This document shows positions 5,951-64,000 of a stretch of 64,000 nucleotides of DNA, in pieces (positions within the stretch are counted from its first letter, which is position 1; each line of letters opens with the position of its first letter). The notes under the pieces are model-generated. The model worked only from the letters and a program-made list of their open reading frames with translations, was not told the origin of the DNA and searched no databases. Position numbers and translations under genes: made by a program. Origin of the DNA: Schaalia sp. ZJ405 (GTDB lineage: Bacteria; Actinomycetota; Actinomycetes; Actinomycetales; Actinomycetaceae); contig NZ_CP064952.1 of assembly GCF_011038885.2 (NCBI RefSeq), positions 2,170,001 through 2,234,000 on the forward strand, written 5' to 3'.

Positions 5951-6526
5951 GTGACTCCCCGACCCGTCATCGCCGCAGCCATCGTTGACAGCCTCGCCGC
6001 ACCCACTCATCTTCTGTGTGCCGCCCGCGCATACCCCGAGGAACTCCGCGGAAAATACGAACTACCCGGCGGCAAGATTGAAGACGGCGAAACCCCCGAA
6101 AATGCGCTGCGTCGCGAAATCCGCGAAGAACTCTCTATTGACCTCACTCTCGGTGATGAGGTGCTCACCAACAGCGGCGAATGGTGGCCGCTCATGAATG
6201 GTCGCCTCATGGGTGTGCGACTTGCCGAGATCGCGTTCACCACATCGGCCCCTCATCCGCATCGCGATTCCGTCATCAAATCCCACGGTCCTCGTACAGC
6301 GCACGAGAAAACTCTCCCCACTCACCACGTTCACTCACCCTCTCCATCCGACCCACGATCCCCGTCACACGCCCTCGCCGGACACCAGGTTCCGCGCCTG
6401 GGTGACTCACACATTGAACTGCGCTGGGTTCCCCTCGAATCCGCCGATACTCTCAATTGGATCGATGCGGATTTCGATATTATTCGACAGATTCAGGAAA
6501 TCTGCCGCGCTCGTCCTCGTCAATAA
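5951..6526 (+). CDS. Nudix hydrolase (MutT-like)
   Basis: 191 residues with a complete Nudix box near residues 42-64: G-K-I-E-D-G-E, then seven residues, then REIREEL. This binds Mg2+ and the diphosphate of a nucleoside-diphosphate derivative. The preceding KYELPGG is typical of MutT and CTP-pyrophosphohydrolase relatives. The family cleans up oxidised or damaged nucleotides or trims NDP-linked compounds; the substrate cannot be read from sequence. Unusually, about 50 His/Pro/Ser-rich residues (near 100-150) interrupt the usual compact 130-150-residue domain before the last conserved helix (WIDADFDIIRQIQ). The last codons (RARPRQ-stop) lie inside a copy of the GACGAGGACGAG element on the opposite strand. 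The GTG start has no leader. Confidence 0.85.
   Translation: MTPRPVIAAAIVDSLAAPTHLLCAARAYPEELRGKYELPGGKIEDGETPENALRREIREELSIDLTLGDEVLTNSGEWWPLMNGRLMGVRLAEIAFTTSAPHPHRDSVIKSHGPRTAHEKTLPTHHVHSPSPSDPRSPSHALAGHQVPRLGDSHIELRWVPLESADTLNWIDADFDIIRQIQEICRARPRQ
6509..6524 (-). repeat. GACGAGGACGAG element, copy 1 (over the Nudix stop codon)
   Basis: Reads ATTGACGAGGACGAGC on the minus strand. It supplies the last residues and part of the stop codon of the Nudix gene. Confidence 0.8.
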
Positions 6527-6627
6527 AAAGATCTGTGAAGGCGATTTTTCGGCGGAATCTCAACCCATTGGTAAAAACCCACCCGTTCCTCACGCCCTCT
6601 TTTTCACGACATCGGAACCAGATCTGT

Positions 6628-6633
6628 CACAAT
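6628..6633 (+). promoter_or_regulatory. candidate -10 box of a leaderless tetR transcript
   Basis: CACAAT (in TCACAAT) ends 6 nt before the ATG at 6640. No Shine-Dalgarno lies between, matching a leaderless start. The call is weak, since no -35 is clear. Confidence 0.3.
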
Positions 6634-6639
6634 GACGCT

Positions 6640-7332
6640 ATGCCGAAAATCATTGGAGATAACCTCGCCGACCATCGACAGATGACGCGCCGACTACTTT
6701 TCGATGCGCTGGGTGACTTGCTCGCAACGACGCCGTTCGATGCCATCACCATGTCACAGATCGCGAACCTTGCCGGAGTTGGCCGCACCTCCGTGTATAA
6801 CCACTTCCCCGACAAAGAAATCCTCCTGCTGGCCTACATGCGCGAAGTCACCGCCGAATTCACCGAGATGCTCACCGAAGCACTCGACAATGAACCCGAC
6901 GCCCTCGAGCAGATGCGTCTCTACCTTCGTGCCTACCTGGAACTCACCGCGAAATACCACGTGACCTCGGGAATGAATCTCCACCGCGAGATCTCCGCCG
7001 AGAATGCCAGTCACCTCGCCGATCACGCATCAATCGTTGGGCGTGTCCTCCTGGACATCCTGACCAAACTCATCGTCAACGGCCTCATTCCCCGGCAAAA
7101 CCCACACACGCTGGTCACGCTCATTCACTCAACCCTGTCCGGCCAACGCCTCCCCATAGAGCCGCGGGCCCGAGATGAACATATCGCCAACGTCCAGGCG
7201 TTCATCCTCCGAGGCATCGGAGTCGCACCCGAACTCGTCACCCCTGCCTCCCCCGGTGACACAGACGAGCCGGTGGCCTCCGATGACACCGGTTCACCTT
7301 CGGCGTTCCTGCGCTGCCCAGTACACGCCTGA
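6640..7332 (+). CDS. TetR/AcrR-family transcriptional regulator
   Basis: 230 residues from ATG at 6640 (MPKIIGDNLADHRQ). The N-terminal DNA-binding domain is clear: LFDALGDLLATTPFDAITMS, then QIANLAGVGRTSVYNHFPDK, the TetR helix-turn-helix with its diagnostic Y-x-H/Y-F-x-x-K. The remaining helices form a ligand/dimer domain; the last 35 residues are Ser/Asp/Pro-rich and probably disordered. I reject an upstream in-frame start at 6457 because it would lie inside the Nudix gene and adds no family sequence. It may control itself or the Nudix gene; no palindromic operator is obvious. Its ligand is unknown. Confidence 0.88.
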   Translation: MPKIIGDNLADHRQMTRRLLFDALGDLLATTPFDAITMSQIANLAGVGRTSVYNHFPDKEILLLAYMREVTAEFTEMLTEALDNEPDALEQMRLYLRAYLELTAKYHVTSGMNLHREISAENASHLADHASIVGRVLLDILTKLIVNGLIPRQNPHTLVTLIHSTLSGQRLPIEPRARDEHIANVQAFILRGIGVAPELVTPASPGDTDEPVASDDTGSPSAFLRCPVHA

Positions 7333-7715: not shown

Positions 7716-8087
7716 ATGTCAACGATCGAGCTGACAAAGGACAATTTCGAAAAGACCGTCGCAGACAACCCGATCGTCCTCGTTGACTTCTGGGCCTCAT
7801 GGTGCGGTCCATGCCGTCAATTCGGTCCAATTTTTGAGGAATCCTCAAACACTCACGACGACATCGTCTTCGGCAAGATCGACACCGACGCCGAACAGGA
7901 ACTCGCAATGGCTGCGCAGATCTCATCGATCCCGACTCTCATGGCTTTCCGTGACGGCATCGCTGTGTTCCGCCAGTCCGGAGCACTGCCATCAGCTGCC
8001 CTTGAGGATCTCATCGGTCAGATCAAGAACCTCGACATGGATGATGTACGCAAGCAGATCGCCGAGCACGACGCTGCGCAAAGCTGA
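7716..8087 (+). CDS. trxA: thioredoxin
   Basis: 123 residues, a classical cytoplasmic thioredoxin. The redox-active WCGPC is at residues 29-33 within VLVDFWASWCGPCRQF. The cis-proline loop is in SSIPTLMAFRDG, and the buried Asp precedes the active site (D24). Thioredoxin reduces protein disulfides using electrons from thioredoxin reductase, whose gene is not in this window. A GAAAGAGAG purine run precedes the ATG. The gene is monocistronic and ends in a strong terminator at 8106. The C-terminal extension (QIAEHDAAQS) is slightly longer than in E. coli TrxA. Confidence 0.95.
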   Translation: MSTIELTKDNFEKTVADNPIVLVDFWASWCGPCRQFGPIFEESSNTHDDIVFGKIDTDAEQELAMAAQISSIPTLMAFRDGIAVFRQSGALPSAALEDLIGQIKNLDMDDVRKQIAEHDAAQS

Positions 8088-10116: not shown

Positions 10117-10911
10117 AGTGTCCTCCTGGTTGTGGGCAAGTGCGGCGCTGGGAACCATTCCCTCAAGCTCCGGATGTGCAGGCGCGTCAGAAATCCATGT
10201 TCCATTGTTTTCCGAGAACGATGAACGCACATGCAGAGGAACGCCGTAACGACGAGCGAATTCAACGGCGCGCAAGTGCAGAATTTTTGCTCCATGCGCC
10301 GCCATTTCAAGGGTCTCCTCCTGCGTGATCGTCCGCAGCCTATGGGCCTTAGGAACGATCCGCGGATCCGCTGAGAAGAGCCCGTCAACATCCGTGTAGA
10401 TCTCGCACACATCCGCGTGGAGTGCCGCAGCCAGGGCAACGGCGGTTGTGTCTGATCCTCCACGTCCAAGCGTTGTCACGTCCTCGTCTTTCGAGACCCC
10501 CTGAAAGCCCGCAACGATCGCGACTTGACCTCCGCGGATCGACCGCGCAACGCGTTCGGGAACCATGCCAACAATTTGGGCACGCCCGAAGTGTGAATCT
10601 GTACGAATACCGGCCTGCGCACCGGTGTACGCCTGAGCGGGAACTCCGAGTTCATTCACAGCCATCGACAGCAGTGCCATCGAGATGCGCTCACCGGCCG
10701 ACAGGAGAATATCCATTTCACGTTCCGGAGCATTGCTCGTGATTTCAGCGGCTGTGTCCAGCAGGTCATCGGTGGTATCCCCCATCGCGGAAACCACAAC
10801 AACAACCTGATGTCCCGCGTCGTGGGTTTCGACGACGCGTTGGGCAACTCGCTTCATGGCCGCGGCATCGGCCACGGAGGAGCCACCATACTTCTGAACG
10901 ATGAGCGCCAC
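9595..10911 (-). CDS. lysC: aspartate kinase, alpha subunit
   Basis: 438 residues. It phosphorylates aspartate to aspartyl-4-phosphate, the committed step of the aspartate pathway. The kinase domain starts ALIVQKYGGSSVADAAAM (K-Y-G-G-S/T signature). FQGVSKDEDVTTLGRGGSDT is the substrate/ATP-binding region, and EIYTDVDGLFSADPRIV is conserved. The C-terminal third holds two ACT domains (ITVTGIPNSPGKAARVF and LSLVGAGMRTNPGVSAKLF), the site of lysine/threonine feedback inhibition in relatives. An internal start gives a separate beta subunit (see 10116). It is transcribed toward asd. Confidence 0.96.
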   Translation of the reverse strand: MALIVQKYGGSSVADAAAMKRVAQRVVETHDAGHQVVVVVSAMGDTTDDLLDTAAEITSNAPEREMDILLSAGERISMALLSMAVNELGVPAQAYTGAQAGIRTDSHFGRAQIVGMVPERVARSIRGGQVAIVAGFQGVSKDEDVTTLGRGGSDTTAVALAAALHADVCEIYTDVDGLFSADPRIVPKAHRLRTITQEETLEMAAHGAKILHLRAVEFARRYGVPLHVRSSFSENNGTWISDAPAHPELEGMVPSAALAHNQEDTMEEPIISGIAHDRSQDKITVTGIPNSPGKAARVFSICAEIGANIDMIVQNIPTADPTRANITFTLPEGDAKKTLAALEAARDELNFQDLRYNPNIGKLSLVGAGMRTNPGVSAKLFSALSDAGINIDLISTSEIRISVVTKLDDLDRAVQAVHTAFGLDSTESEAVVYGGTGR

Positions 10912-11256: not shown

Positions 11257-12942
11257 ATGACAACCACGATTTATGGAACACCCGTTGTTCAGGGAGCGGC
11301 CTTCGCGCCTGCTCTGTGGGTGCGCCGCCCCGAACTTCCCGCCGAAACCGCACCCGCACTTGCACTGGAAGCCCGCGAACCCGAGGTCTCCCGATTCCTT
11401 GAATGTGCAAACACTGTCGCTGACAACCTGCTCAACCGTGCGTCACACACAAACGGCCAAGCCGCCGAAGTCCTGACGATGACCGCATCAATGGCAACGG
11501 ACCGCGCGTGGACAAAGGACGTCTCCACTCGCATTCGCAAAGGCATTCCCGCCGTTCAGGCCGTCATGGCCGCAACCGCCCGATTCGTTGTCATGTTCGA
11601 GACAGCCGGGGGCGTCATGGCCGAACGCACAACCGACCTCAAAGATGTGCGCGACCGCGTCATCGCTCACCTGCAAGGAACTCCCGAACCCGGAATTCCC
11701 AACGCCACAGAACCCTTCATCCTGTGTGCCGACGACCTCTCCCCCGCAGATACCGCCGAACTTGATCCCCACCTGTGTCAGGCAATCATCACGCAGCTTG
11801 GCGGACCAACATCACACACGTCAATCATTTCGCGTCAGCTGGGGATTCCCTGCATTGTTGCCGTGCGTCGTCTCGGTGAAATTGCCGAAGGCTCCTTCGT
11901 CCTCGTCGATGGGAAAGACGGCTCAATCACCGCCGATATCGACCACGACGCCGCCCGAGCTCGAGTAGCCGAAGACCGCGAGCGCGCCGAAAAGGTCGCA
12001 CGATGGACAGGACCGGCAACAACCTCAGATGGTGTGCGCGTCCAGCTTCTGGCGAACGTCCAGGACGCTCCAACCTCGATCAACGCCGCGCACAGTGGGC
12101 TCGCCGAAGGTGTCGGTTTGCTCCGCACCGAACTTGCTTTTCTCAACGCCGCGATTGAGCCGAGCGTCGATGAGCAGACGGTGAGTTACGCCAACGCCAT
12201 TGAACCGTGGAAAGGCTCCAAGGTTGTCTTCCGCACACTCGACGCAGGATCGGATAAGCCCGTGGCCTACGCGACCTTGCCCGAGGAACCGAATCCCGCT
12301 TTGGGTGTTCGGGGAATCCGCACGACCGGGCCCCACCCGAATGTTCTCCAGAATCAGCTTGACGCCATCAGTATTGCTGCGATGGCTCATCCTCAGACCG
12401 AGGTATGGATCATGGCGCCGATGGTGTCGACGATCCCCGAGGCTCGGTGGTTTGTCAGCCTGGTGCGTCAGCGCTGCGAAGAGTTCGGTGTCAATCTCAA
12501 AGCCGGAATCATGATCGAAGTTCCCGCAGCAGCTATCCTCATCGATCAGTTCGTGGACATCGTTGACTTTGTGTCGCTGGGAACGAATGACCTCACGCAG
12601 TACACGATGGCCTCGGATCGGCTTTCTCCAGATCTTGCCGAGTACGCCGATCCCTGGCAGCCGGCACCTTTGGCCCTCATTCGTCGAGTTGCCGAGGCCG
12701 GGGTTCGCCTGGGTAAGCCCGTTGGGGTATGTGGCGAGGCCGCCGCCGATCCGATGCTGGCGTGTGTGCTTGTCGGAATGGGTGTGACCTCGCTGTCGAT
12801 GGCGTCAGGGGCGATTGCCGGTGTGGGCGCACAGATTGCTGAGGTGTCTGCGGATCAGTGTCGTGCCGCTGCGGATGCGGTTGTTGGGGCGGTAGATCCG
12901 GGCGAAGCGCGTCATCGTGCGCGTCTTGCCCTGGGACTGTGA
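11257..12942 (+). CDS. ptsI: PTS enzyme I (phosphoenolpyruvate-protein phosphotransferase)
   Basis: 561 residues. It transfers phosphate from phosphoenolpyruvate to HPr, feeding sugar-specific PTS permeases. The phospho-accepting histidine is H187 in LGGPTSHTSIISRQLGIP. The PEP-binding barrel shows GVGLLRTELAFL, ALGVRGIR, MAPMVSTIPEARWF, the metal ligand in IMIEVPAAA, and SLGTNDLTQYTMASDR. The catalytic cysteine is in VGVCGEAAADP. An AAGGAG site lies 8 nt before the ATG. No HPr gene or PTS permease adjoins it in this window, so the gene may be monocistronic. Confidence 0.95.
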   Translation: MTTTIYGTPVVQGAAFAPALWVRRPELPAETAPALALEAREPEVSRFLECANTVADNLLNRASHTNGQAAEVLTMTASMATDRAWTKDVSTRIRKGIPAVQAVMAATARFVVMFETAGGVMAERTTDLKDVRDRVIAHLQGTPEPGIPNATEPFILCADDLSPADTAELDPHLCQAIITQLGGPTSHTSIISRQLGIPCIVAVRRLGEIAEGSFVLVDGKDGSITADIDHDAARARVAEDRERAEKVARWTGPATTSDGVRVQLLANVQDAPTSINAAHSGLAEGVGLLRTELAFLNAAIEPSVDEQTVSYANAIEPWKGSKVVFRTLDAGSDKPVAYATLPEEPNPALGVRGIRTTGPHPNVLQNQLDAISIAAMAHPQTEVWIMAPMVSTIPEARWFVSLVRQRCEEFGVNLKAGIMIEVPAAAILIDQFVDIVDFVSLGTNDLTQYTMASDRLSPDLAEYADPWQPAPLALIRRVAEAGVRLGKPVGVCGEAAADPMLACVLVGMGVTSLSMASGAIAGVGAQIAEVSADQCRAAADAVVGAVDPGEARHRARLALGL

Positions 12943-13134
12943 GTGGGACTGTGAGGGTTTGACGGCTACGGCAGCGCTGTTCTCGAGGACGACGCCCCCA
13001 CTCATCTGATCCGTCTCATAATGTGAGCGAAAAACGTCCATTTGATGTTCACGAAGTGGTCACCGTCTGTCCGCACACGATCGACCGGGCTAGCGTCACG
13101 GGAAGAAACAGACATCCATAGGTGGAGGACTCCC

Positions 13135-14148
13135 GTGAAACGCTTACCATTCATTGCGGCGATTGCTGCTGGCGTCGCATCGTCACTCATCCTTGCCGGC
13201 TGCTCAGGTTCAGGCTCGGCTTCCTCGCAAGCCGGAGAATCCGGGGCTTCCGCACACTCCAAGTCCGCCGAATACACCATCGGTATCAGCCAGATCACCA
13301 CGCATACCGCGCTTGACGCTGCCCGCGAAGGATTCAAGAAAGCCTTTGAGGAGGCCGGAATCTCCGTGAAGTTCACGGAAGAAAACGCCCAGGGCGACCA
13401 GGCAACCGCAACGTCGATCGCCTCGAAGTTTGCCGAGGACGACCTCGACCTCGTCCTCGCCATCGCCACTCCCACCGCGCAGGCCATGTCCCAGGCGATC
13501 TCCGATACCCCGATCCTCTTCACCGCCGTGACCGACCCCGTGTCCGCGCAACTCGTTGACTCACTCGACGCTCCCGGAGCCAATATCACGGGAACAACCG
13601 ACATGAACCCCGTTGCCGACCAGATCGAACTGGTGAAGAAGTTTGCCCCCGATGCCGCATCTGTCGGCATCATCTACTCCTCAGGCGAAGTCAACTCCGA
13701 AGTCCAAGTAGATCTCGCGAAGAAAGCTGCGAAGGAAAACGGCCTGACCGTCGTTGAAACAACGGTAACGAACTCCGCTGAAGTCCAGCAGGCCGCCGAG
13801 GACCTGGCGAAGAAGGTCGACGCGATCTACGTCCCCACCGACAACACCGTCGTTTCCGCCCTCGCCTCCGTTGTCCAAGCAACAGAAACCGCGAAGATCC
13901 CATTGATTTCAGGCGAAGCTGAGTCCGTGAAAGACGGAGCACTTGCCACCTACGGAATCGACTACTTCACCCTGGGTCGACAGACAGGGGAAATGGCGAT
14001 CAGGATCCTCACCAAGGGCGCCGATCCGGCCTCCACTCCCGTCGAGGCACAGGAAAAGACTGAATTGACGATCAACGAAACAACCGCGCAAGCCATCGGT
14101 CTGACAATCCCAGAGGATCTGAAGGCAGCGGCAACTCTCGTCCACTAA
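13135..14148 (+). CDS. ABC transporter substrate-binding lipoprotein (TrpX-like, ABC_sub_bind family)
   Basis: 337 residues from GTG at 13135, which follows GGTGGAGGA. The signal peptide MKRLPFIAAIAAGVASSLIL ends at lipobox LAGC, so it is lipid-anchored outside the membrane. The mature part reads YTIGISQITTHTALDAAREG and TATSIASKFAEDDLDLVLAI. TPTAQAMSQAISDTPILFTA, PVSAQLVDSL and the repeated VPTDNTVVSAL complete a two-lobe periplasmic-binding fold of the ABC_sub_bind family. Relatives in Firmicutes bind tryptophan or other amino acids, so an aromatic amino acid is a guess. It is the first gene of a three-gene importer with the permease and ATPase downstream. Confidence 0.85.
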   Translation: MKRLPFIAAIAAGVASSLILAGCSGSGSASSQAGESGASAHSKSAEYTIGISQITTHTALDAAREGFKKAFEEAGISVKFTEENAQGDQATATSIASKFAEDDLDLVLAIATPTAQAMSQAISDTPILFTAVTDPVSAQLVDSLDAPGANITGTTDMNPVADQIELVKKFAPDAASVGIIYSSGEVNSEVQVDLAKKAAKENGLTVVETTVTNSAEVQQAAEDLAKKVDAIYVPTDNTVVSALASVVQATETAKIPLISGEAESVKDGALATYGIDYFTLGRQTGEMAIRILTKGADPASTPVEAQEKTELTINETTAQAIGLTIPEDLKAAATLVH

Positions 14149-14214: not shown

Positions 14215-14257
14215 GCGGCGTCGTCCTCGTCAATAGGAGCGACGAGGGCGACGCCGC
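14215..14257. terminator. hairpin built from two inverted GACGAGGACGAG-type elements
   Basis: 17-nt arms (GCGGCGTCGTCCTCGTC and GACGAGGGCGACGCCGC) pair with one G-U wobble around the loop AATAGGAGC. The left arm plus AAT is a copy of the dispersed element in inverted orientation; the right arm is its G-variant. It sits between the binding-protein and permease genes, where a partial terminator would make the binding protein more abundant than the membrane parts. Confidence 0.7.
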
Positions 14258-15288: not shown

Positions 15289-16088
15289 TGCTCGACATCG
15301 AAGCGGTAACTAAGACCTTCTTCCAAGGCACCGTCAACGAACGCGTCGCATTGGCGAACGTGTCGCTTCACCTAGACCCCGGTGACTTCGTGACAATCAT
15401 CGGGTCCAATGGTGCCGGCAAGTCCACTCTGCTTAACGTTGTGTCTGGTCGTTACGAGGCAAACCTCGGGCGCATCACCATCGACGGAGTTGACACGACG
15501 CACATGCCTGACTACACAACGGCACGCTACGTGTCCCGAGTGTTCCAAGATCCGATGGCTGGAACTGCTCCGCACCTGACAATCGAAGAAAATCTTGCTC
15601 TGGCATGGTCACGAGGACGACGCCGCTCCCTTGGGTTCGCGCTCACTCACAAGCGGCGTGAACATTTTCGCAAGGTCCTCGCCCCGCTTGAACAGGGGTT
15701 GGAGAATCGACTGACAGCGAAGGTCGGACTGCTTTCAGGTGGTCAGCGTCAGGCATTATCCCTGACGATGGCAACGTTCTCCGACCCGAAGGTTCTTCTG
15801 CTGGATGAACACACCGCTGCGCTTGACCCCGCACGTGCTGCACTTATTACCCGGCTCACTGAGCAGGCCGTGGAACGCCAACATCTGACGACCCTCATGG
15901 TCACGCACAACATGGAACAGGCACTGAGCATGGGCAATCGCCTGATCATGATGCACGAAGGCCGCATCATGTTTGAGCTGGCCGGCGAGGATAAGAAGAA
16001 CGCGACCGTTGACTCACTGCTCGCCGAGTTCGACCACCTGCGCGGTAAATCCACAGCGGGGCTGTCCGACCGAGTGTTACTGGGGTAA
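15288..16088 (+). CDS. ABC transporter ATP-binding protein
   Basis: 266 residues from ATG at 15288; a GTG one codon upstream is equally possible. It has Walker A GSNGAGKST, a Q-loop region with RVFQDPMAGTAPHLTIEENL, signature LSGGQRQALS, Walker B VLLLDEHTAALD and the switch histidine in VTHNMEQALSMGNRL. It powers the importer formed with the two preceding genes. EHTAALDP instead of the commoner EPTAALDP is typical of this subgroup (tryptophan/YtrB-like ATPases). It ends the operon; no strong terminator is visible in the next 160 bp. Confidence 0.88.
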   Translation: MLDIEAVTKTFFQGTVNERVALANVSLHLDPGDFVTIIGSNGAGKSTLLNVVSGRYEANLGRITIDGVDTTHMPDYTTARYVSRVFQDPMAGTAPHLTIEENLALAWSRGRRRSLGFALTHKRREHFRKVLAPLEQGLENRLTAKVGLLSGGQRQALSLTMATFSDPKVLLLDEHTAALDPARAALITRLTEQAVERQHLTTLMVTHNMEQALSMGNRLIMMHEGRIMFELAGEDKKNATVDSLLAEFDHLRGKSTAGLSDRVLLG

Positions 16089-16847: not shown

Positions 16848-19800
16848 TTAATTCTTTCCCTCGTCGTACACTTCCTCGACCACTTTGCCTCCGAGGATAT
16901 CGAGCACCGCCGACAATCCGAAATTCGTTGACGTTTCCAGGTCTTCGTCGTCAAATGATGCGGTGTCGTCGTCAATGACCTGTGTTTCTTGTGTTTCTTG
17001 CGGTGCGTGCTGCGTCCTCTCGCGCATCTGCGCCTGAACTTCCGCGATGACGGCACGCCGGTCGGGAGTGGGTTGTTCCTCAGGGGCGCCCTGTTGTTCC
17101 GGCGCGGATTGGTGCTCTGACGTCAGCTGGTGTTCCGGAGCAGGCGGTTGTTCGGATTCTGCGCGCCCGTGAGGAGACGTGTGCTGGTTCGACACCGCGG
17201 GAGAGTCTGCTTCGTCGAAAACAACCCGCCCCTCGCCGCCGGGGATCGCAACCGCTTCCTCCCAGCTGCTCATCGCCTGTCTGGCCACGTCAGGTTCCGG
17301 TGCATATCTCATTGACGAGGACGAGGCCGGCTTCTTTTCACCCCGCGTATCCCTGGGCGTTTCGCCGGGTTCGGGGTAGTGGAAGGGTTCCGATGGGTCC
17401 TGCGAAGACTCAGCGGCTTGAGGCTCAGCGGGTAGAGATTCAACCGTGGTCGATGCAGCGGACACATCCTGAACTGGCGAAGAATACGACGCGTCGTCCT
17501 CGTCCCCCGAAGACTCCTTCGATGTGGCAGAGGGGATCGAAGTGGCAGACGCGCTCACGGAATCGGTTGCCACATGATCCGCTGCCACCTGATCTGTGTT
17601 GGCAGGCAGTTCATCTCGGGCCGAAACCTGGGCTGTATCGTGGGCCGTCAATTCCTCGGATACATCAGCATTCGCCCGCTGGAACTGTTCGTGCGGCTCG
17701 GATTCCTCAGAGTGTGCCTCCGCTGAGGCTTTCTCAAAAGGGGGCGGCTCCGAGACCCATCCCTGGTCGTCGGTGCGCGGGCCGGTGTGGAACTCGTGGC
17801 GAGGACCCGTCTTAGTCTGATCACGGGATGCGTCCGCTGTGGGAGCCGAAACCGCGGGGCCACCCGCAGCCTGTCCAACCTGGGCCGTCACCGACACGTT
17901 CAGGCCAAGGACATCCTGAATTGCGCGTTCAACGTCTTGGAAGCGACCTCGGCTCATGAACTGAGCAACAAAACCCTGACTGGGGAAGAGGATCACAACG
18001 GTTGATCCGTCAACTGCTCCGAGCTGTCCGTTACCGCTGACCTGCGTCCATGTCACACGGTTCATTGAACTCAGGCGTTCAACGACTTCGCCCCAACGAT
18101 TGCGCAGCATGTCGGCGTCGCGGCCCGTGCCAGGCGTATGCCCGGCCTCGGTCTGAGAGTCTGGGGGTATTGGCCGACCTTGGCCAGTATTGGCTTCCCG
18201 CTGACTGTCCGGATGAGTGGACTGAGTGCCCGGCTGCTCCGGCTGCGGGCGCGCCGGAGTATTCTCTGCTGCCACCGACTGCGGACTCGACGCGGACGAA
18301 TTCTGGATCCGCCCAGATGCGGGCTGGCTGGGTTGAGCATCGTCATGCCCATCCTGGGACCCGGGGGTTCGCGGTTGCACATCAGCCCACGCATTCGCCT
18401 CAGCAGGGGCGGACTGAACGGGCTGACGCGGCTGTTCACGTCGATTATCGGAGGGTGCCTCACCCTGGTGTGACGCGGAATTCTCACGATTGCGCAAAGC
18501 TGAATCAGCAGGTTCGGGCCCACGTGTCGGCGTGGACGCGGGTGTAAAATTCTGCGGCTGAGCGGGTGCAGGTGCCGGCGTTGACATTCCTTCCGCTACG
18601 GGCGCGCTTGACACCGTCTGAGCAGGTGCGACCTCGGATACTGCCGATTGCGGACTCGACGCAGGCCGATTCTGCCCCTGGGACTGCTGATATGCCGCAA
18701 GCGCTTCGAGACCTCGCGGACCGCGGCCCCCACTCTGGCCTCCCCCGGCGAAACGAGCCTGATCACGCTCGTTGGGGGCACCGCCACCGTGAATACCAAC
18801 ACCACCGGGCACACCACCCTGAGCAACACCCTGGGCATTCACGTGACCGACCTGCGCCCCGCCAAGGGGAACAAGGATTCGACCGATGAGTAGTTCAAGT
18901 TGCAGCCTGGGCGAGGTTGCTCCGGCCATTGTCCGCAGAGCCTCGTCCGTCAAGTCCGCGGCCCTCGACAGCGCACGACTTCCCCAATTCTTCGCCTGAC
19001 GCTGCATACGCTCGAACTGATCAACGGGAACACCGCTGAGCACGTCTGCTGCACCGTCACCTGCAACGGAGACGATGAGTAGGTCACGTAAGCGCTGAAG
19101 GAAGTCCTCCGCAAAACGTCGGGGTTCGTGACCGGAATCCACCATGCGTTCAACGACGCGGAAGGCAGCGGCTCCGTCTCCGCCGGCGAGGGCGTCAACC
19201 GTTTCATCCAGTAGCTCGGTGTCCGTGTATCCAAGCAGTGCGATCGCTGTGTGGTAAGTCAGGTGTCCGTCGGATACGCCTGCCATCAGCTGGTCGAGGA
19301 CGGACAACGTGTCACGTACTGAACCTCCGCCCGCACGCATCACCAGGTTAATCACACCCTGATCAACGGCAATCTGCTCTTTTTCGCACAGCTCCTGGAG
19401 GTAGGGAGCCAAAACGTCCGGCGGAACCAAACGGAACGGATAGTGGTGTGTCCGCGAGCGAATGGTTCCGATGACCCGGTCAGGTTCCGTTGTTGCGAAG
19501 ACGAATTTCACGTGCTCTGGCGGTTCCTCAACGATTTTCAGCAGAGCATTGAAGCCCTGGTTCGTCACCATGTGCGCTTCGTCGATGATGAAAATTTTGT
19601 AGCGGTCACGAATCGGAGCGAAGGCCGCGCGCTCACGTAATTCGCGGGCATCGTCAACACCGCCGTGCGAGGCCGCGTCGATCTCGACAACATCCAGGGA
19701 TCCAGGACCCCCGTTCGCCAACTCAACGCACGACTCGCACGTGCCGCACGGAGTATCCGTTGGTCCTTGAGCGCAGTTGAGACAACGGGCAAGGATGCGC

Positions 19801-20116: not shown

Positions 20117-23100
20117 ATGCCGAAGCCGCTTACCCAGCATCCACATCTTGTTCTTGGTGCCCGCATCCAGGGAATCCTCCCGAACGAAATCGCGGAAATC
20201 CTCGCTGTCAATTCCTTGGCGGAAGATGTTGTTGAGGTGACACTCAAGGACTCCACAGGGACCCCCACAACGCGAATTTTCAACCGAGACGACATCGATA
20301 ACTTCAGCCTGGCACCACCGACTATAGACCACCCAGAGTTCGATGCCGATGCCGATGATTTCCGTCTCGCCGCGGAAGCTCTACGGATCAAATACGCAGC
20401 GCTATACGATCCAATGATCGCGATCAATAGCTCCCACATTGATCCCCTTCCGCATCAGATCCGTGCGGTCTATGAGGAGCTTCTTCCGCGGGTACCACTC
20501 CGTTTTCTTTTGGCAGATGATCCGGGTGCAGGTAAGACCGTGATGGCCGGTCTCTACATTAAAGAACTCATTCTTCGGGGCGATTGCGAGCGGGTGATTA
20601 TTGTCGCCCCCGGAGGGCTCGTTGAACAGTGGCGCGAAGAATTGTTGGAGAAGTTCGATCTGCGTTTCGAGGTTTTTGGCCGCGAAATGCTCTCGGATTC
20701 ACTGGACATGAACCCTTTCGAGCAACATCCCCGCCTAATCATCCGGATGGACCAGGTTGCCCGAAATTTTGACCTCATGGAACTTCTCGGTGCCGTTGAA
20801 TGGGATGTCGCGGTCATCGACGAGGCTCACCGAATGACCGCTCATCATTCAACTCTTTTCTCTGGCATCCAGGAGACGAAGCGTTTCACTCTAGGGCGGC
20901 TGTTATCCGAATCCGCACGAAATTTCCTTCTCATGACGGCAACACCTCATTCGGGTAAGGAGGAGGATTTTCAGGTCTTCATGTCGTTACTTGATCACGA
21001 CCGCTTTGAAGGCCAGTACCGCGAGCTTGATCACTCACGCAACACAAACGGTCTGATACGCCGGATGGTCAAGGAAGATCTGCTGACGTTTGAGGGTAAA
21101 CCCTTGTTCCCCATGCGTAAGGCGTACACGATGCACTTTACCTTGAGTGACAACGAGCGTGACCTGTATGAACAAGTAACGAATTATGTCCGTAAAGAAA
21201 TGGGACGCGCCGATCGAATCTCCCGCAATGGCGACAAGAAACGCGGGAATACTGTCGGTTTCGCGTTGACGGTTCTCCAGCGTCGTCTTGCCTCAAGCCC
21301 CGAAGCAATCCTGCGATCCTTGGAGCGTCGCCGCGATCGTCTCAGCCGTCGACTGTCCGAATTCCACACCATAGCTTCCGACATGGTGACATTGTCCGGC
21401 GATCCCTTCAGTAAACCTCATCGTTTTTCTTCGGGGGACGAGGACGAACCCGGCAATTGGGATCATCTCTTTGACCTGGTTGATTTTGACGAGCTGACAG
21501 ATGAGGAACGTTCATCTCACGAAGAACGTATTGAAGATGTCGTTGATTCGGCAACGGCAGCTCAGACAATTCCAGAGTTGCAGGCGGAAATTTCCATCTT
21601 AGATGACCTCATTGACAACGCCCGCAGAGTTCGTTCTAGCGGAGAAGACACGAAGTGGGTGCAGCTTCGCGAGATTTTCGACCAGCGCATTCTCAGTCAG
21701 CGTGACGGCGAGCCCCGTAAGATCATCGTGTTCACTGAGCATCGCGACACGCTGGAATACCTCCGCGAGAAGATCTCAACATGGTTAGGCCACCCGGAGG
21801 CCGTGTTGACGATCCACGGAGGCACAAGCCGCACGGAACGCAAAGCTGTCCGTGAGGCGTTCACTCATGATCCGCGCACGGTCGTTCTTTTGGCAACGGA
21901 TGCTGCGGGCGAAGGACTGAACCTTCAGCGCGCACACCTCATGGTCAATTACGACCTGCCGTGGAATCCCAACAGGATTGAGCAGCGTTTTGGACGGATC
22001 CACCGCATCGGTCAACGCGAGGTCTGTCATCTCTGGAATCTGCTTGCGGACGACACTCGCGAGAGCGATGTGTTTGGTCGACTCTTGACGAAGATCGACA
22101 CTCAAGAAAAGGCGTTTCGAGGAAAGTTATTCAATGTCTTGGGCGAGCAAGGAGCGTTTCGTGATCACTCGCTTCGGGATTTGCTGGTGGAAGCGATCCG
22201 TTTTGGTGATGATCCACAGGTGAGGGACCGCTTATTTGAGGTCATTGATTCCAGCGTGAGCGAGGGATTGGACGAGCTAGTTTCTCAGCGTGCTCTACAC
22301 CCGGAGCTTTTCAGTTCGTTGAATCTTGAGCAGGTTCGTGCCCGCATGGAGCGCGCCCGCGAACGCCGTCTACAACCAGGCTATATCGAGGCTTTCTTCC
22401 GCCAGGCCTTCGCACGTTTAGGTGGGCAGATTCGTTCTCGCGAGAGCGGCCGTTTTGAGCTGACTCGTGTTCCGCGTCGCCTTATACAGGCAGGTTTCCG
22501 TCTCAATCGCTTGTCGCCAATTCCGGAACGCTACGAGCGGGTGACTTTTGTTCCACATCGCGTACGCGTTGACGGCCTACCCGATGCCTCACTCATTGCT
22601 CCAGGGCATCCGTTGTTGTCTGCGCTGATTGATGTCACGATTGAGGATCTGGGGAAGACACTGCGGCGAGGCACGGTCCTGGTGGATCGTCGGCCAGCTC
22701 CCATTGATTCACCAGCATTGCTCTTTGCATTGGAGCAGTCCATTATGACGTCACAGGGTCTGACAGCGTCACGTCACTTCGACTTTGCATTTCTCTCCCA
22801 TTCGGGGAACATTTCTGTGTCGCATGTTCCCCCCTATCTTGAGTTTGATCGTATTGACGAGGACGAGGCTCACCTTCTTCCTCGAGTAGTTGATTCAGAA
22901 TGGCTGAGCAAAGACCATGAGAAAGACCTTCGCGGATGGGCGTATTCCGTCGGAGCACTCCCTCGTAAGCGTGAGCTGGAAGAGACACGTTCGGCAGAGT
23001 TGGATCGCACGAAGGCGGAGGTTCGTCGTCGTTTGGAAGCAGAGATCAACTTTTGGAGCTTGGAGAGCCTGCGTCTGACTGACGCGGTTCATCAGGGGAA

Positions 23101-23767: not shown

Positions 23768-23847
23768 ACACCTGCCTGCCTGCGGACGGCGGGTAGGGTG
23801 AGTCAAAACTTTTTTCACCCATGTTTCCATGAAGGGGGACACCAACA

Positions 23848-24147: not shown

Positions 24148-24168
24148 CCGGTTTTAGACGCTCCGCGT

Positions 24169-27254: not shown

Positions 27255-27320
27255 ACCTGCGGTCCCCCACCCCCAAGGTAGTGACGCCACCACGGGAACT
27301 GTCACCCGGGGAAAAGCGGA

Positions 27321-50977: not shown

Positions 50978-52588
50978 TCATGGCTGCGCCTCCAAAATTT
51001 GTTCACTCACGGCAAGGCGCATGATTGCTTGCTCAGAGAACTCATCACGCTGAAGCTCACCTGCGAATTTCCCATTCGACAACACGATGACGCGATGAGA
51101 AATCCCCATGATTTCAGGGAGTTCAGAGCTCACGACAACGACTCCAGCCCCTTGCTCAGCGAGCTGGTGGATGAGTGTGTATATCGCGGAACGTGCTCCA
51201 ACATCAATTCCCCGAGTTGGTTCATCAAAGAGAAATACTCGTGGTGCAAGGGGAAGCCACTTGCCGATGACTCCTTTTTGTTGATTCCCTCCCGAGAGGG
51301 TTTCCGCAAGCTGATTGAGTTGACCTCGAAGATCAACGTCATCTTTCACGTTCTTCGCTGTTGTGCGGAGCTTTCCTACAGGTGTGATTCCTCTGAGGAA
51401 TGCACGCGTCGGCAACGTGATGTTGTCTTCGATTGTCAGTCTTTGAGCAAGTCCCTGCCCCTTACGGTCTTCAGGGACGAGGACGATCTTGCGTCTAATG
51501 GCATCACGGGGTGATCGAAGGTCGAGAGTTTGCCCATCAAGGATGATGTCCCCACTCTCGGCTTTGCGTGCACCCGCAATCGTTTCGAGTAACTCAGTTC
51601 TACCCGCTCCAACAAGACCTGCGATTCCAAGAATTTCGCCTTGGTGTAGTTCGAGAGAGATGTTGTCAAACTCTCCCGAGCGACTCAGTTGACGAATTTC
51701 GAGGAGCACCTCCGATTTCGGTGTGACCGGTTCGGGGTAGATATGTGTTAAATCGCGACCAACCATTGATGCGACCATGCTCTCCAGGTCGACTTTTCCC
51801 GTGTCCCACGATTTCACACGCGAGCCATCTCTTAACGTCACCACTGTGTCGGCAACAGAGTGCGTCTCGATGAGTCGATGCGTAATCCACACGATTCCCA
51901 CACCGTCACGTTTCAAGTCTTCAACGATGGTGTAGAGCACATCGACTTCGTCTTGCCCAAGCGATGCAGAGGGCTCATCGAAAACGATGATCTTCGGATT
52001 CTGAGAGAGCGCTTTGGCGATTTCGACGAGCTGCTGCACCGCAACGGAGCATCTGCCCGTGAGAGTTGTTGGCGCGAGCTCTGCCAATCCAACTCTCGCC
52101 AATAGTGCAGCTGCGTCCGAGTTCATCTTGTCGCGATGAACAAGTCCTGCGCGCTGAGGAAAACGTCCGAGGAAGATGTTTTCTGCAACTGTGAGGTTGG
52201 GAAGCAGCGAAAGTTCCTGGTGAACAAGTACCACTCCGCAGGCCGTCGCATGTGCGGGACCGCTGGGTGCGTATGGCTGTCCATCAAGGAACATTTCTCC
52301 CGCATTGGGCGAATGCACTCCGGAGAGTACTTTCATCAGCGTGGATTTCCCAGCACCGTTTTCCCCAATAAGTGCGACAGCTTCACCGTAATGGACATCG
52401 AAGTCCACCTCGTTGAGTGCCTTAACTCCGGGAAACGCTTTGACGATTCCACGCAGAGAAAGGCCGTCGTTGATCGGCGGTTCGTTCCACTTTCCCGAAG
52501 CGATACTCGGCGTACCTACTCTTTGTGTGGGGGCACTAGCCTGAGCCTCCCCCAGCATCCCATTCTTTTCAGAGTCCAAGTTCGACAT
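50978..52588 (-). CDS. sugar ABC transporter ATPase, two domains (RbsA-like)
   Basis: 536 residues from ATG at 52588 (MSNLDSEKNG), which overlaps the cupin gene by 20 bp. Two nucleotide-binding domains are fused. The first has Walker A GENGAGKST, VHQELSLLPNLTVAENIFLG and Walker B IIVFDEPSASL. Its signature is degenerate (CSVAVQQLVEIAKALS in place of LSxGxxQ), as often in RbsA/MglA proteins. The second has an altered Walker A (GLVGAGRTELLETI), PEDRKGQGLAQRLTIEDNIT, signature LSGGNQQKGVIGKWL and VFLFDEPTRGIDVGARSAIY. It energises the RbsC-like permease. The 55-residue N-terminal extension is unusual. Confidence 0.92.
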   Translation of the reverse strand: MSNLDSEKNGMLGEAQASAPTQRVGTPSIASGKWNEPPINDGLSLRGIVKAFPGVKALNEVDFDVHYGEAVALIGENGAGKSTLMKVLSGVHSPNAGEMFLDGQPYAPSGPAHATACGVVLVHQELSLLPNLTVAENIFLGRFPQRAGLVHRDKMNSDAAALLARVGLAELAPTTLTGRCSVAVQQLVEIAKALSQNPKIIVFDEPSASLGQDEVDVLYTIVEDLKRDGVGIVWITHRLIETHSVADTVVTLRDGSRVKSWDTGKVDLESMVASMVGRDLTHIYPEPVTPKSEVLLEIRQLSRSGEFDNISLELHQGEILGIAGLVGAGRTELLETIAGARKAESGDIILDGQTLDLRSPRDAIRRKIVLVPEDRKGQGLAQRLTIEDNITLPTRAFLRGITPVGKLRTTAKNVKDDVDLRGQLNQLAETLSGGNQQKGVIGKWLPLAPRVFLFDEPTRGIDVGARSAIYTLIHQLAEQGAGVVVVSSELPEIMGISHRVIVLSNGKFAGELQRDEFSEQAIMRLAVSEQILEAQP

Positions 52589-53810
52589 TTCCAGGTCCGT
52601 AGTGCTTGAGCATGACCAGCGGTTCAGAATCAGATTCATTCGTGATGACGACGCCTCGTCGCGCTGCCGCCGATGTCACGAAGTATTCGTCTCGTGTGAG
52701 TTCGTTGATACGCACCATCGTGATCGCCGAGAGTTCGTGACCGTCGATGGTTCCGTGGCCCTGCACGGCGATCAGACCGTAGGCGTCCTCTTCTTCAATG
52801 AGTGCGCTCTGTCCGGGGAACACCGTGAGTTCTTTGGCGCTAAAGGCCGTTGACTTGTAGACAATCCACTTCTCAACAAAGCGTCCTCGTCCGTGTTCTT
52901 TCGAGAATTCAGTTTCGTAGGGGGTTGTTGCGCGGTTAAGGTGGAATTGCGGATCGACGTTCGCCTCCCAGTCCAGCATGTCAACGAGCTTTGAGTAGTC
53001 GCCCCAATGCTCCTGTGGAACGTCTTTCCACAGCAGCTCAGCTGAAACTTCCATGTTGTTCGACCATGACTCAAACATCGAGAGCACATCCGATGCTCGC
53101 TGGGGTTCGTAGGTGCAGATCGATGCGGGTGCATGGAGGATTCCTGCCGGAACATCCCAGCCTTTGCCGAGCTGTGGACGATATCCCTGAGACAGGTCGG
53201 TGATTCGGTTGTCTCCGCCACGTTCATGACGACGCAGATGGTCCTCAAGTTGTTCGCGCGTGGTTTCCGGGTGAAGGCCGATGTACATGATCGACTGCTC
53301 ACCGAGGTAGTTATTCATTTGAGGCGAGAAGTAGTAGGCTTCCGGCTTGCCTCGCTTCCCAATTGGCAGCATGTCGCGGTCCATTGGATGCATGTGGAAG
53401 GGAAGCGGGAGCAGGTTGTCGTAGAACTTTGAGTAGGCATCCCAACGCCCATATTCGTTCCAGCTGCGTGCGCCAATCGCATCTGCCGTAAACGAGTCAA
53501 TGATGTCATCAAGCGGAACGAGGACGCCGTTCGCTGACACAGCAAGACTCAGCCCCTCGTAAGGCCCGGTTCCTGGGCCGTTGTCAGCCCGCGTTGTCGA
53601 TCCAAGCCATCGCTCATCGATTCCACCTCTTCCCTTCTCAAAGGGGAAGTAGTCATCGGGGTGGAGCCGGAGTCGACGTCCCGGAGTGCAGAAAGCACGG
53701 GGCACCCATGCCGGCGCAAGCCGCAGAACACCTTGCCCTTCGTTGAAGACAGAATCAACTGCTGATGCAGTGGCATCGACAGGAAGATCGAAGGTTGTTT
53801 CTTTTGCCAT
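52569..53810 (-). CDS. cupin-type sugar isomerase (mannose-6-phosphate-isomerase-like)
   Basis: 413 residues from ATG at 53810, preceded by GGAGGACCACA (a longer frame to 53957 would overlap the mutarotase gene). The double cupin is related to class I mannose-6-phosphate isomerases: the metal histidines are in LPLPFHMHPMDRDMLPIGKR, and GKPEAYYFSPQMNNYLGEQS (Glu) and the Asp/Pro-Ala-Gly loop WDVPAGILHAPASICTYEPQ (His) follow. The second cupin ends VQGHGTIDGHELSAITMVRI. It probably isomerises an aldose or its phosphate in the pathway served by the neighbouring importer and epimerase. The substrate is unknown. It lies 34 bp after the mutarotase gene. Confidence 0.8.
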   Translation of the reverse strand: MAKETTFDLPVDATASAVDSVFNEGQGVLRLAPAWVPRAFCTPGRRLRLHPDDYFPFEKGRGGIDERWLGSTTRADNGPGTGPYEGLSLAVSANGVLVPLDDIIDSFTADAIGARSWNEYGRWDAYSKFYDNLLPLPFHMHPMDRDMLPIGKRGKPEAYYFSPQMNNYLGEQSIMYIGLHPETTREQLEDHLRRHERGGDNRITDLSQGYRPQLGKGWDVPAGILHAPASICTYEPQRASDVLSMFESWSNNMEVSAELLWKDVPQEHWGDYSKLVDMLDWEANVDPQFHLNRATTPYETEFSKEHGRGRFVEKWIVYKSTAFSAKELTVFPGQSALIEEEDAYGLIAVQGHGTIDGHELSAITMVRINELTRDEYFVTSAAARRGVVITNESDSEPLVMLKHYGPGNVELGL

Positions 53811-54607: not shown

Positions 54608-54626
54608 GGGACGAGGACGAGGCCGG
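54608..54626 (+). repeat. GACGAGGACGAG element, copy 11 (intergenic)
   Basis: GGGACGAGGACGAGGCCGG. The ATT of the usual form is replaced by GG, as in the copy at 63795. Confidence 0.8.
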
Positions 54627-62011: not shown

Positions 62012-62865
62012 CTCATTCACTTCCACCAGATTGCACACCGGATTCAATTCGATCATTGAGCCCCCTCCCCCTATTCGAGTTAACGCGGGGAGTCCGAGCT
62101 CAATCCCGAACGCCTGATGATGACCAACGGATCCGTTGGTTCTACCCACACGGACAGTTCGCTCGCGGCGCCTACCGCGCGCTGTTGGCGCGAAGCCAGC
62201 AGACAGTTCGTCACGTGTCGTATCCGGATAACGCGATGTTCCCTGTATCCAGCGCGCTTTTCCGTTTTCGGGGTACCGGCACGGTTTCGCTCGTCGCCTC
62301 GTGCGGTCAGGTACTTGACGAGGACGAGGCAGCATCCTTTCGTCATGAGTCCGTCACCACTCCCACGTTGTCCCTAGGGGAAAGGGTCCGTCTTCCCTGT
62401 ACGCTGAGGGTTGTTTCCGACCGTGGTGAGCCACCCGCGCTCCGTTCGCTCATCGAACGGGGCGACGCGCGTGATGCTTTGCAGATTCTGCGTAAATTGT
62501 GGGGAGGGATGCTTGAGGCAGGGGCTCAGACGTTCTGGGAGGAATTCCCTGTCGAGGGCGAGCCTCACGAACAGATGTATGGACGTCCTTTCGGTAAGAG
62601 TCTCTGCCACGGTTGGGCGTCAGGTCCGGCCGAGCTTCTCCCGTTAACCCTTCTGGGAACACGACCGCTTGTGCCCGGGTGGGCAGAATTCACCGTGAGT
62701 CCTGACCTTGGGGACCTGGACTGGGCTGCGGCTGTCATTCCCGCACCGGCGGGCGACATCGCGGTTGTGGCTGAAAAGACGGTGACGACGGTTGCCGTTC
62801 CTCGGGGAACGACTCTCGTGGTTCAGGAGAAACGAATCAACGGCCCAGCTCTCCATCGTTGGTGA
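62008..62865 (+). CDS. truncated rhamnosidase-like protein (GH78 ends only)
   Basis: 285 residues, start overlapping the rhamnosidase stop (ATGA). The N-terminal 105 residues resemble a GH78 accessory domain (RIRWFYPHGQFARGAYRALL). The last 135 match the end of the GH78 barrel and C-terminal domain (MLEAGAQTFWEEFPVEGEPH, SLCHGWASGPAELLPLTLLG, VPGWAEFTVSPDLGDLDWAA). The catalytic signature and most of the barrel are missing. A copy of the dispersed element lies at the N/C boundary (VLDEDEAA, residues about 103-110). It may be a deletion derivative of a second rhamnosidase, or a true accessory subunit, since the frame is intact and translation is coupled. Catalysis on its own is unlikely. Confidence 0.75.
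   Translation: MTHSLPPDCTPDSIRSLSPLPLFELTRGVRAQSRTPDDDQRIRWFYPHGQFARGAYRALLARSQQTVRHVSYPDNAMFPVSSALFRFRGTGTVSLVASCGQVLDEDEAASFRHESVTTPTLSLGERVRLPCTLRVVSDRGEPPALRSLIERGDARDALQILRKLWGGMLEAGAQTFWEEFPVEGEPHEQMYGRPFGKSLCHGWASGPAELLPLTLLGTRPLVPGWAEFTVSPDLGDLDWAAAVIPAPAGDIAVVAEKTVTTVAVPRGTTLVVQEKRINGPALHRW
62314..62330 (+). repeat. GACGAGGACGAG element, copy 12 (in truncated rhamnosidase gene)
   Basis: CTTGACGAGGACGAGGC in frame, read V-LDEDEA-A, at the junction between the N- and C-terminal GH78-like parts. Confidence 0.85.
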
Positions 62866-62913
62866 TGGACAGATCGGACATTGACACCGAATGCGACTTC
62901 TCATAACCTCATA

Positions 62914-62926
62914 TTGAAACGATTCA
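62914..62926. promoter_or_regulatory. candidate operator R3 (before the aldolase gene)
   Basis: TTGAAACGATTCA, identical to the complement of R1 over 13 bases, 29 bp upstream of the aldolase ATG. It links this gene to the rhamnose regulon. Confidence 0.65.
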
Positions 62927-62954
62927 CCGACTTCGACGACGAAGGAAAGTATCC

Positions 62955-64000
62955 ATGTCCGACCTCACCCAACAGCTCATTCGTCTGGCCAATGACATCG
63001 GCGGGGACACCGAGTTTTCACGTGCCGGCGGCGGCAACGCCTCCGTGAAGCGCGACGGCATCCTCCATATCAAACCCAGCGGTGTTCCTCTGGCAACGCT
63101 TCGCCAGGAGGAGCTGGTTCCCCTACGTATTGACGTTCTTTTGGATGCTCTGCATTCCGACGACGAAGTTGACGGCGACCCCGTGCGCGTTGCCGCGCAG
63201 AAAGCGCAGGTCGGAGATGCCGGTGGCCGACGCCCCTCCGTTGAAATTCTTTTCCACGCGCTGATTGATGATCCGCTTGTTCTTCACCTCCATCCGCTCA
63301 CCGCCAATGCCGTGACCTGCAACGAGCGCGGCGAGGAGCTGGCCCGTGAGATCCTCGGCGACGATGCCGTGTGGGTGGATTACACGGATCCGGGTGTCCC
63401 GTTGGCTCGCGCCGTTGAGGATGCTCGCAACGCCCACGCCGCGCGCACCGGTAAGCCTGTTCCCGGCGTTGTTCTGCTGGGCAACCACGGAATCATTGTT
63501 TCTGGTGCCTCGTACGACGACGTCGCCCAGCGAGTCCATTCCCTCACCGATCGGATTCAACGGGCGATCGACCAAGCGCCTCAACCCGAGGAGATTGCTC
63601 ATCCTCAGCTGAGTGCCACACAAAAAAAGGCCATTGTTGAATCGTTCCACCTCGTGACGGGCGCGTCGGCCAGCGCGTCCTCGGACTCAGGTTTAGCGCG
63701 TGATTACACCGGACCCCTAGCTGGCCCCGTTTCCGAGGGTCCCCTCATTCCCGACCAGATCGTCTACGCCGGTTCACTTCCCCTCGTTCTTCAAGGGGAC
63801 GAGGACGAGGCCGCACTTTCCCACAAGGTCGAGCAGTTCCAGGCGACTCACGAACGTCTGCCGATCATCGCAGTCGTTCCCGGTGCCCTCGTCGTTGCGA
63901 TCGGAGATTCACCCTCGGGCGCGGATAATGCCCTCGCAACGTACCTCGATGCTGTGCGAGTAGCAGCCGATGCAGACCGCATCGGAAAGGTCCGGGTGAT
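62955..64000 (+). CDS. class II aldolase / rhamnulose-1-phosphate aldolase-like enzyme, 5' part (runs off window)
   Basis: 349 codons are present, starting ATG 62955 after GAAGGAAAG; the end is outside the window. MSDLTQQLIRLANDIGGDTE, FSRAGGGNASVKRDGILHIK and SGVPLATLRQEELVPLRIDV match the start of bifunctional rhamnulose-phosphate aldolase/short-chain dehydrogenases (usually near 680 residues). The zinc histidines are in DPLVLHLHPLTANAVTC and LGNHGIIVSG. VDYTDPGVPLARAVEDA is also typical. It would cleave rhamnulose-1-phosphate to dihydroxyacetone phosphate and lactaldehyde; the dehydrogenase half would lie past 64000. A dispersed element is in frame (LQGDEDEAAL). An R3 operator precedes it. 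Confidence 0.82.
   Translation, partial: MSDLTQQLIRLANDIGGDTEFSRAGGGNASVKRDGILHIKPSGVPLATLRQEELVPLRIDVLLDALHSDDEVDGDPVRVAAQKAQVGDAGGRRPSVEILFHALIDDPLVLHLHPLTANAVTCNERGEELAREILGDDAVWVDYTDPGVPLARAVEDARNAHAARTGKPVPGVVLLGNHGIIVSGASYDDVAQRVHSLTDRIQRAIDQAPQPEEIAHPQLSATQKKAIVESFHLVTGASASASSDSGLARDYTGPLAGPVSEGPLIPDQIVYAGSLPLVLQGDEDEAALSHKVEQFQATHERLPIIAVVPGALVVAIGDSPSGADNALATYLDAVRVAADADRIGKVRV
63795..63813 (+). repeat. GACGAGGACGAG element, copy 13 (in aldolase gene)
   Basis: GGGGACGAGGACGAGGCCG in frame, read Q-GDEDEA-A. It lies between the aldolase part and the following domain. Confidence 0.8.

Follow-up and report, generated by a model that had tools for sequence, protein, structure and literature searches.

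Why should one short word recur, in genes as well as between them, through a stretch of bacterial chromosome? The question is raised by positions 2170001-2234000 of contig NZ_CP064952.1 (C1) of Schaalia sp. ZJ405, a single-contig genome of 2,345,961 bases; this stretch of 64,000 nucleotides is referred to below as the window. An earlier note had described a dispersed 12-mer here, GACGAGGACGAG, with at least ten exact and several near copies in both orientations, and had likened it to DNA uptake sequences. The element is indeed present: the window contains 10 exact and 13 one-mismatch copies on the plus and minus strands, and these 23 matches with at most one mismatch compare with 0.72 expected (100 dinucleotide shuffles, largest count 3). 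The 14 copies originally listed comprise 10 exact, three one-mismatch (14220, 37104, 40783) and one two-mismatch copy (27321), with positions shifted by 0-4 bases. Its core, CGAGGACG, was found 40 times in the 64 kb. Based on the analyses described here, we regard CGAGGACG as probably a genome-wide self-recognition word of the DNA uptake sequence (DUS) kind, in a Gram-positive family.

The word is abundant in the whole genome. The core is present 1,837 times (901 + 936 by strand), which corresponds to one copy per 1.28 kb across 2.35 Mb, while the control, the motif read backwards, is present 155 times; for the exact 12-mer the numbers are 249 (115 + 134) and 2 (1 + 1). At high GC, the frequency of reversed words reflects codon use, which makes them poor controls, and codon nulls were preferred wherever sequence was to hand. 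They were applied to an 864-kb sample, consisting of the window and 40 stretches of 20 kb spread across the chromosome, in which a custom codon-likelihood caller working without curated annotation predicted 710 genes (711 in a rerun), covering 82% of the sample. In the first null, synonymous codons were shuffled inside genes; in the second, stricter one, each codon was conditioned on the adjacent bases. Of the 687 cores in the sample, 538 are located in genes, where 110-120 are expected under the codon shuffle and 135 under the stricter null, an about 4-fold excess. The 10-mer ACGAGGACGA was found in genes 155 times (18.7 and 20.8 expected, respectively) and the 12-mer 56 times (4.0 under both nulls). 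Between genes the excess reaches 16-fold, with the remaining 149 cores against 9.3-9.4 expected, 89 copies of the 10-mer against 0.53 and 43 of the 12-mer against 0.04. The codon-shuffled control proposed in the earlier note was thus clearly exceeded. With 664 copies of ACGAGGACGA, the genome also has the highest count among 198 genomes of the order, a comparison which can be read only roughly since it relies on the reversed-word control.

These counts bear on the possibility that the word is an artefact of codon and protein composition. The sequence GAC GAG GAC GAG encodes Asp-Glu-Asp-Glu (DEDE), so acidic stretches written in preferred codons could generate it, and 23 of the sample's 102 exact 12-mers are read in this sense frame. 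However, 46 of the 102 are intergenic although the called genes occupy most of the sample, single-base neighbours of the word show no comparable excess, and copies are not confined to one protein family. On the two synonymous nulls and the intergenic counts we rejected this explanation, to which we attach virtually no probability.

What is the unit? When 8-mers of the sample were compared to an order-4 Markov model, the best one was CGAGGACG (687 vs 190). The unit is not the 12-mer originally proposed but the 8-base core CGAGG[A]CG in a looser [ATT or GGG]GACGAGGACGAGgCCG frame. Preferred on the 5' side of the core is ATTGA or GGGGA and, more weakly, AGGCCG on the 3' side. Outside about -8 to +14 the flank information is near zero, which means that no longer unit is copied, and a longer mobile repeat was rejected on this ground. 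Single-base neighbours of the core at positions 1, 2, 3, 4, 5, 7 and 8 were found at 0.4-1.7 times the null and those at position 6 at 2 to 3 times, compared with 5.4 times for the core itself. In the 12-mer, core changes other than at position 6 are represented by 0-4 copies, against the 102 intact ones. Since seven core positions bar variants and position 6 alone tolerates them, the neighbour counts are the signature of a strict recogniser of 7 bases with one tolerated base. A family of 12-mers around CCCCTGATAGACTT, which ranked above the motif, turned out to come from a CRISPR array, whose repeat occurs 15 times at 64-base spacing at 1593-2540 of stretch L002 (C1:58001-78000), near a gene for a 1,101-aa Cas9 at 3791-7096 of the same stretch.

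The arrangement of the copies on the chromosome argues against oriented words. The GC skew of the sampled stretches puts the origin close to coordinate 1 and the terminus at around 1.15 Mb. The 9-mer CGAGGACGA lies on the leading strand in 188 of 375 cases (p = 1), and the check for strand bias relative to the origin, suggested earlier, thus revealed none. A short word that is abundant, non-palindromic and species-specific, and that occurs in prophage DNA only at chance level, could be a Chi-like recombination hotspot, read by an enzyme of the RecBCD, AddAB or AdnAB type. Chi, however, should be oriented and this word is symmetric, which disfavours such a hotspot; moreover, the enrichment is higher between genes than inside them and the preferred flanks carry signal past 8 bases. 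We consider a Chi-like role quite improbable, and oriented words (Chi, KOPS, i.e. FtsK-orienting polar sequences) were rejected on strand symmetry.

The core spacing is near Poisson with a coefficient of variation (CV) of 1.12. Together with the strict 7-base recognition, the presence in both replichores and the depletion in a prophage (see below), this fits binding by a protein, and the about 1,800 sites could fold or mark the chromosome as binding sites of a chromosome-organising or nucleoid protein. Such a site accounts for most of the pattern, but not for the change of dialect between species: both this change and the loss of site positions within one genus are unusual for nucleoid sites. 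In addition, the sampled stretches show no accumulation of copies around the origin or the terminus. We know of no nucleoid-type protein reading such a word in this family, and we think this alternative unlikely, though it deserves more weight than the other rivals.

A further possibility is a regulatory site, that is an operator or the half-stem of an intrinsic terminator, or a small mobile repeat. The density is higher in intergenic regions and some copies form inverted pairs, among them one in the window (40783/40808). However, inverted pairs of GACGAGGNCG at most 60 bases apart number just 12 in the 864 kb, 538 of the 687 cores lie within genes, and among the 124 intergenic cores located between two called genes, the density is lowest in convergent gaps (17 in 28.9 kb). 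The terminator role was rejected on the basis of the rare inverted pairs and the poor convergent gaps, and the terminator positions pointed out in the earlier note are no general feature. The lack of flank information speaks against a mobile repeat. Altogether, we hold this group of explanations to be very improbable.

For recently acquired DNA the picture is mixed. The core is depleted in a prophage of about 38.4 kb at C1:2042600-2081030 (stretches L129, L036 and L130), which was identified by matches of its terminase large subunit, portal, major head protein and integrase to PHROGs; the integrase gene (2079798-2081027) marks its end. It contains 3 cores, while 30.5 are expected from the genome rate (Poisson p = 3e-10) and about 6 at the null rate alone, and the 10-mer is absent from L036. 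Both sides are core-rich, with 11 cores in ~7.6 kb before and 11 in ~9 kb after the prophage. Long core-free gaps were also found at the CRISPR-Cas9 locus, at ABC-transporter genes together with lower-GC genes, and at a patch where an integrase-core fragment occurs together with a gene for a HicA toxin. For the window, which has a long core-free gap of 7.7 kb, it had been claimed that the element avoids two transposon-rich parts (the transposon labels being those of the note). This is correct for 1-5000, which has 0 cores, but not for 28,000-36,000, where 2 cores were found and 5 are expected.

Is the word shared with relatives? By its aspartokinase, the organism falls within Actinomycetaceae close to Schaalia and Pauljensenia (85% to Schaalia sp. 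Marseille-Q2122, 84% to P. hongkongensis). We analyzed 13 members of the family, each represented by 21 to 280 kb, de novo with the same codon-null and intergenic tests. The position-6 base differs between them: CGAGGCCG is found in three relatives and CGAGG[A/G]CG in another genus, while one member of the same genus has no detectable form. The base that varies between species is the one tolerated inside the Schaalia sp. ZJ405 genome, and CGAGG[N]CG with a species-specific N and flanks is strong in this genome and in G150, G042, G207 and G027. In G150 (same genus, GC 0.557) the best word is CGAGGCCG (171 vs 30), and CGAGGACG shows a chance-level count (12 vs 20). In 100 kb of G027 (another genus, GC 0.548), CGAGGACG and CGAGGGCG each reach 100 vs 6 and CGAGGTCG 25 vs 4, whereas CGAGGCCG does not exceed the expectation (2 vs 4). 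In G042, ACGAGGCC was found with a GG extension; its counts are 146 vs 65 inside genes and 51 vs 3.5 in intergenic DNA, and in Actinomyces bouchesdurhonensis the corresponding numbers are 46 vs 14 and 25 vs 1.6. In G201, a related word, ACGAGGCG, gave 77 vs 33 and 11 vs 2.4. Base composition was rejected as the cause of the dialects because they differ at similar GC (0.557 in G150, 0.579 in our genome, 0.548 in G027).

Whole-genome counts in the genus differ strongly as well. Seven genomes carry roughly 1,000 copies of ACGAGGCCG each, but G150 has 297, our genome 285 and G139 22. Across the 34 further genomes searched in the genus, ACGAGGACGA was counted 9 to 326 times (9 in G150, 17 in G139). 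In a survey of 36 of 80 named loci, each up to about 21 kb long, CGAGGNCG was highest in Schaalia sp. Q2122 (z 6.0) and near zero in Mobiluncus, a Trueperella metagenome-assembled genome and three Actinotignum loci (z -0.7 to 0.2).

Other repeated words came to light in the relatives. A seeming dialect of G139, TGAGGCAAAG, proved to be mostly one tandem repeat, to which 8 of the 11 matches of GAGGCAAA belong; this repeat at L221:12858-13100 has a 30-base unit containing TGAGGCAAAG, of which 8 units were found. G042 (L139-L145, L184-L190) harbours another family of words, which is confined almost entirely to intergenic DNA and comprises ATCCGGAT, ACCTATCC, ATAGGTTA and also AATTGCAT. Three words of this element outrank ACGAGGCC, and ATCCGGAT alone reaches 50 vs 1.0 between genes; it may be part of a promoter, a terminator or a small repeat. 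In G201 (L164-L170, L042), intergenic CATTGGGG was counted at 22 vs 0.9, and TTGGGGTA and CACACAAG are likewise in excess.

We then asked whether individual sites are conserved. From 178 best-hit gene pairs with seven relatives, 143 coding sites of our genome could be aligned. At 21 of them CGAGGNCG is at the same place in the relative, compared with 13.2 expected from codon-shuffled relatives. There is little if any conservation of site positions, so most sites are particular to one lineage and were not inherited at their present positions.

Schaalia sp. ZJ405 has genes for competence, in line with what the earlier note had proposed to look for. A comEA-like gene (SLBB and helix-hairpin-helix domains) adjoins comEC and a holA-like gene, dprA is present, and there are two tad loci, each set with a secretion ATPase and T2SSF proteins; TadE scores above the Pfam cut-off in one locus, and a Tad match lies just below it in the other. 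PilM was found in none of 200 genomes of the family, while the same search matches 9 of 14 control genomes, and pili of the PilM type were therefore excluded. This gene set is necessary for an uptake function, but not specific for it.

Taken together, the excess over the nulls, the 7-base strictness, the strand symmetry, the prophage depletion, the dialects, the low positional conservation and the presence of com and tad genes are all observed, and they are best explained by a self-recognition word for DNA uptake. According to this proposal, the frame [ATT or GGG]GACGAGGACGAG around the core would mark own DNA, and a competence DNA receptor, possibly a subunit of the Tad/Flp pilus or ComEA, would prefer fragments bearing the word. 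The recogniser would be an uptake receptor and the cells competent. Transformation and recombination would favour word-bearing alleles, and because of this the word would accumulate on both strands, in genes and gaps, to about one copy per 1.3 kb, while recent arrivals such as the prophage would remain near chance level. Drift in the receptor specificity could shift position 6 and the flanks and in this way give rise to species dialects.

Several observations weigh against this proposal. Codon-atypical genes, used as a proxy for foreign DNA, are not depleted: for genes of at least 450 bases, grouped into quartiles, the observed/expected ratio is 5.6 in the most atypical quartile, then 4.1 and 4.6, and 3.7 in the most typical one. 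Of the depletion in mobile islands that was to be checked, the prophage part thus held and the codon-atypical part did not. One long core-free gap corresponds to an rRNA operon, which is an ordinary cause. Among the 13 relatives, CGAGGNCG is without clear excess in G139 and G201 (P. hongkongensis); the signal is weak or mixed in G165, G200, G159, G088, G127 and Actinomyces sp. ph3 (21-kb sample), and diffuse in G167. Nor is a mild excess confined to the family: of the 36 named loci, four that lie outside it reach z values of 3.1-4.2 for CGAGGNCG (Isoptericola, Oerskovia, Janibacter and a Micrococcales bacterium). ComEC was detected in 196 of the 200 family genomes including the motif-free G139, and its presence therefore says little; G150, a strong-dialect genome, lacks the second tad ATPase, which means that the second tad locus is not required. 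As presence-absence correlates of the word, ComEC is thus uninformative and the second tad ATPase dispensable. In summary, the uptake interpretation of the earlier note fared well in most sequence-level tests, but not in its link to terminators or in the behaviour of codon-atypical genes.

We lean slightly towards the wider view that a monoderm family uses a self-DNA word with dialects, read by a Tad/Flp-pilus- or ComEA-based machine, that selective uptake arose independently of Neisseriaceae and Pasteurellaceae, and that the dialects act as species barriers to exchange within the family. If this is true, it would imply an independent origin of selective uptake and a new receptor in the Tad/Flp or ComEA system, and would help to study how genes move among actinobacteria. 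If the word does not serve uptake, another explanation, and a fast-evolving one, is needed for about 1,800 sites under strict recognition.

In the window, the copies are distributed as follows. Two exact 12-mers (starting at 17314 and 38955) are embedded in the full 24-base form ATTGACGAGGACGAGGCCGGCTTC at 17311-17334 (+) and 38952-38975 (+), which share at least 24 bases as previously noted. The other exact copies are at 6510-6521 (-; core 6512-6519), 22856-22867 (+) and 43939-43950 (-), all three with an ATT-type 5' flank, at 54610-54621 (+; GGG-type flank) and 63798-63809 (+; GGGG-type), and at 43554-43565 (-), 44353-44364 (-) and 62317-62328 (+). One-mismatch copies with intact cores are present on the minus strand at 10477-10488 (core 10479-10486) and 11896-11907 (core 11898-11905). 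Further ones on this strand are at 13450-13461 (core 13452-13459), overlapped by the position-6 variant GACGAGGTCGAG at 13444-13455 (-), and at 14220-14231 (core 14222-14229, ATT-type flank), 17493-17504 (core 17495-17502, GGGG-type flank) and 32097-32108 (core 32099-32106). On the plus strand, one-mismatch copies are at 21437-21448 (GGGG-type flank), 37104-37115 (ATT-type flank), 42724-42735 and 51476-51487. The inverted pair at 40783-40819 is composed of a one-mismatch 12-mer (-, 40783) and the position-6 variant GACGAGGGCGAG (+, 40808), and the two-mismatch copy at 27321-27335 (-) has an intact core (27323-27330) and an ATTA-type flank. Additional cores were found on the plus strand at 12984-12991, 13434-13441, 15612-15619, 19295-19302, 32202-32209, 40650-40657, 49258-49265 and 53519-53526, and on the minus strand at 7775-7782, 24839-24846, 37748-37755, 41361-41368, 41391-41398, 42204-42211, 43882-43889, 45736-45743, 52882-52889 and 63676-63683. 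Apart from the word, the window carries three consecutive genes at 20117-30828 matching HmaA (helicase, E value 0), HmaB (adenine methylase, 0) and HmaC (ATPase, 2e-261), which constitute an Hma anti-phage defence system; the HmaC-matching protein has an N-terminal HEPN_Swt1 domain besides. A 753-aa protein encoded at 371-2632, with a SpaA-like prealbumin-fold domain and an LPXTG-type cell-wall anchor, is probably a surface or pilus protein.

How does the word compare with known systems? To our knowledge, sequence-selective uptake via a dispersed word is established only in two Gram-negative families, and why other competent bacteria lack selective uptake is a long-standing question. No uptake sequence in Actinomycetota was found in the literature searched, most subscription papers and preprints being outside its reach. 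Chi and KOPS words are likewise short, non-palindromic, abundant and species-specific; however, they are oriented along replication (Chi in the best-known cases), whereas CGAGGACG is strand-symmetric. The uptake signal sequence (USS) of Pasteurellaceae resembles it in having a nine-base core in genome-wide excess, but is unrelated in sequence and lineage; it has long AT-rich flanks, in place of which ATT or GGG stands directly 5' here. In the text available, PMC3630211 gives two known USS versions, AAGTGCGGT and ACAAGCGGT. For Haemophilus, uptake has been mapped by sequencing the donor DNA that competent cells had taken up (PMC7811141). The transformable Micrococcus luteus, in which transformation depends on Flp pili, has comEA, comEC, dprA and two tad clusters, and the accessible part of the report (PMC4322843) mentions no further type IV pilus genes. 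Our genome contains the same set, but the main text of that report does not use the terms 'uptake sequence' or 'sequence-specific'. The closest parallel is the DUS of Neisseriaceae, for which eight dialects and, in the examples given, 2,245 to 5,918 copies per genome are described, five members being without obvious DUS (PMC3630211, accessible text). Its receptor in Neisseria is ComP, according to a review whose accessible text mentions DUS solely for Neisseria (PMC6370729). Both are words of ~10 bases that recur by the thousand, combine a strict core with positions that vary, and form dialects in several related genera. They differ in that the sequences are unrelated and that the word described here, known from sequence alone, belongs to a Gram-positive organism with Tad/Flp instead of PilM-type pili and has about 1,800 copies. 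Nevertheless, the strict core, the permissive dialect base, the symmetry, the occurrence in genes and gaps, the prophage depletion and the turnover of sites appear to be in large part the DUS pattern.

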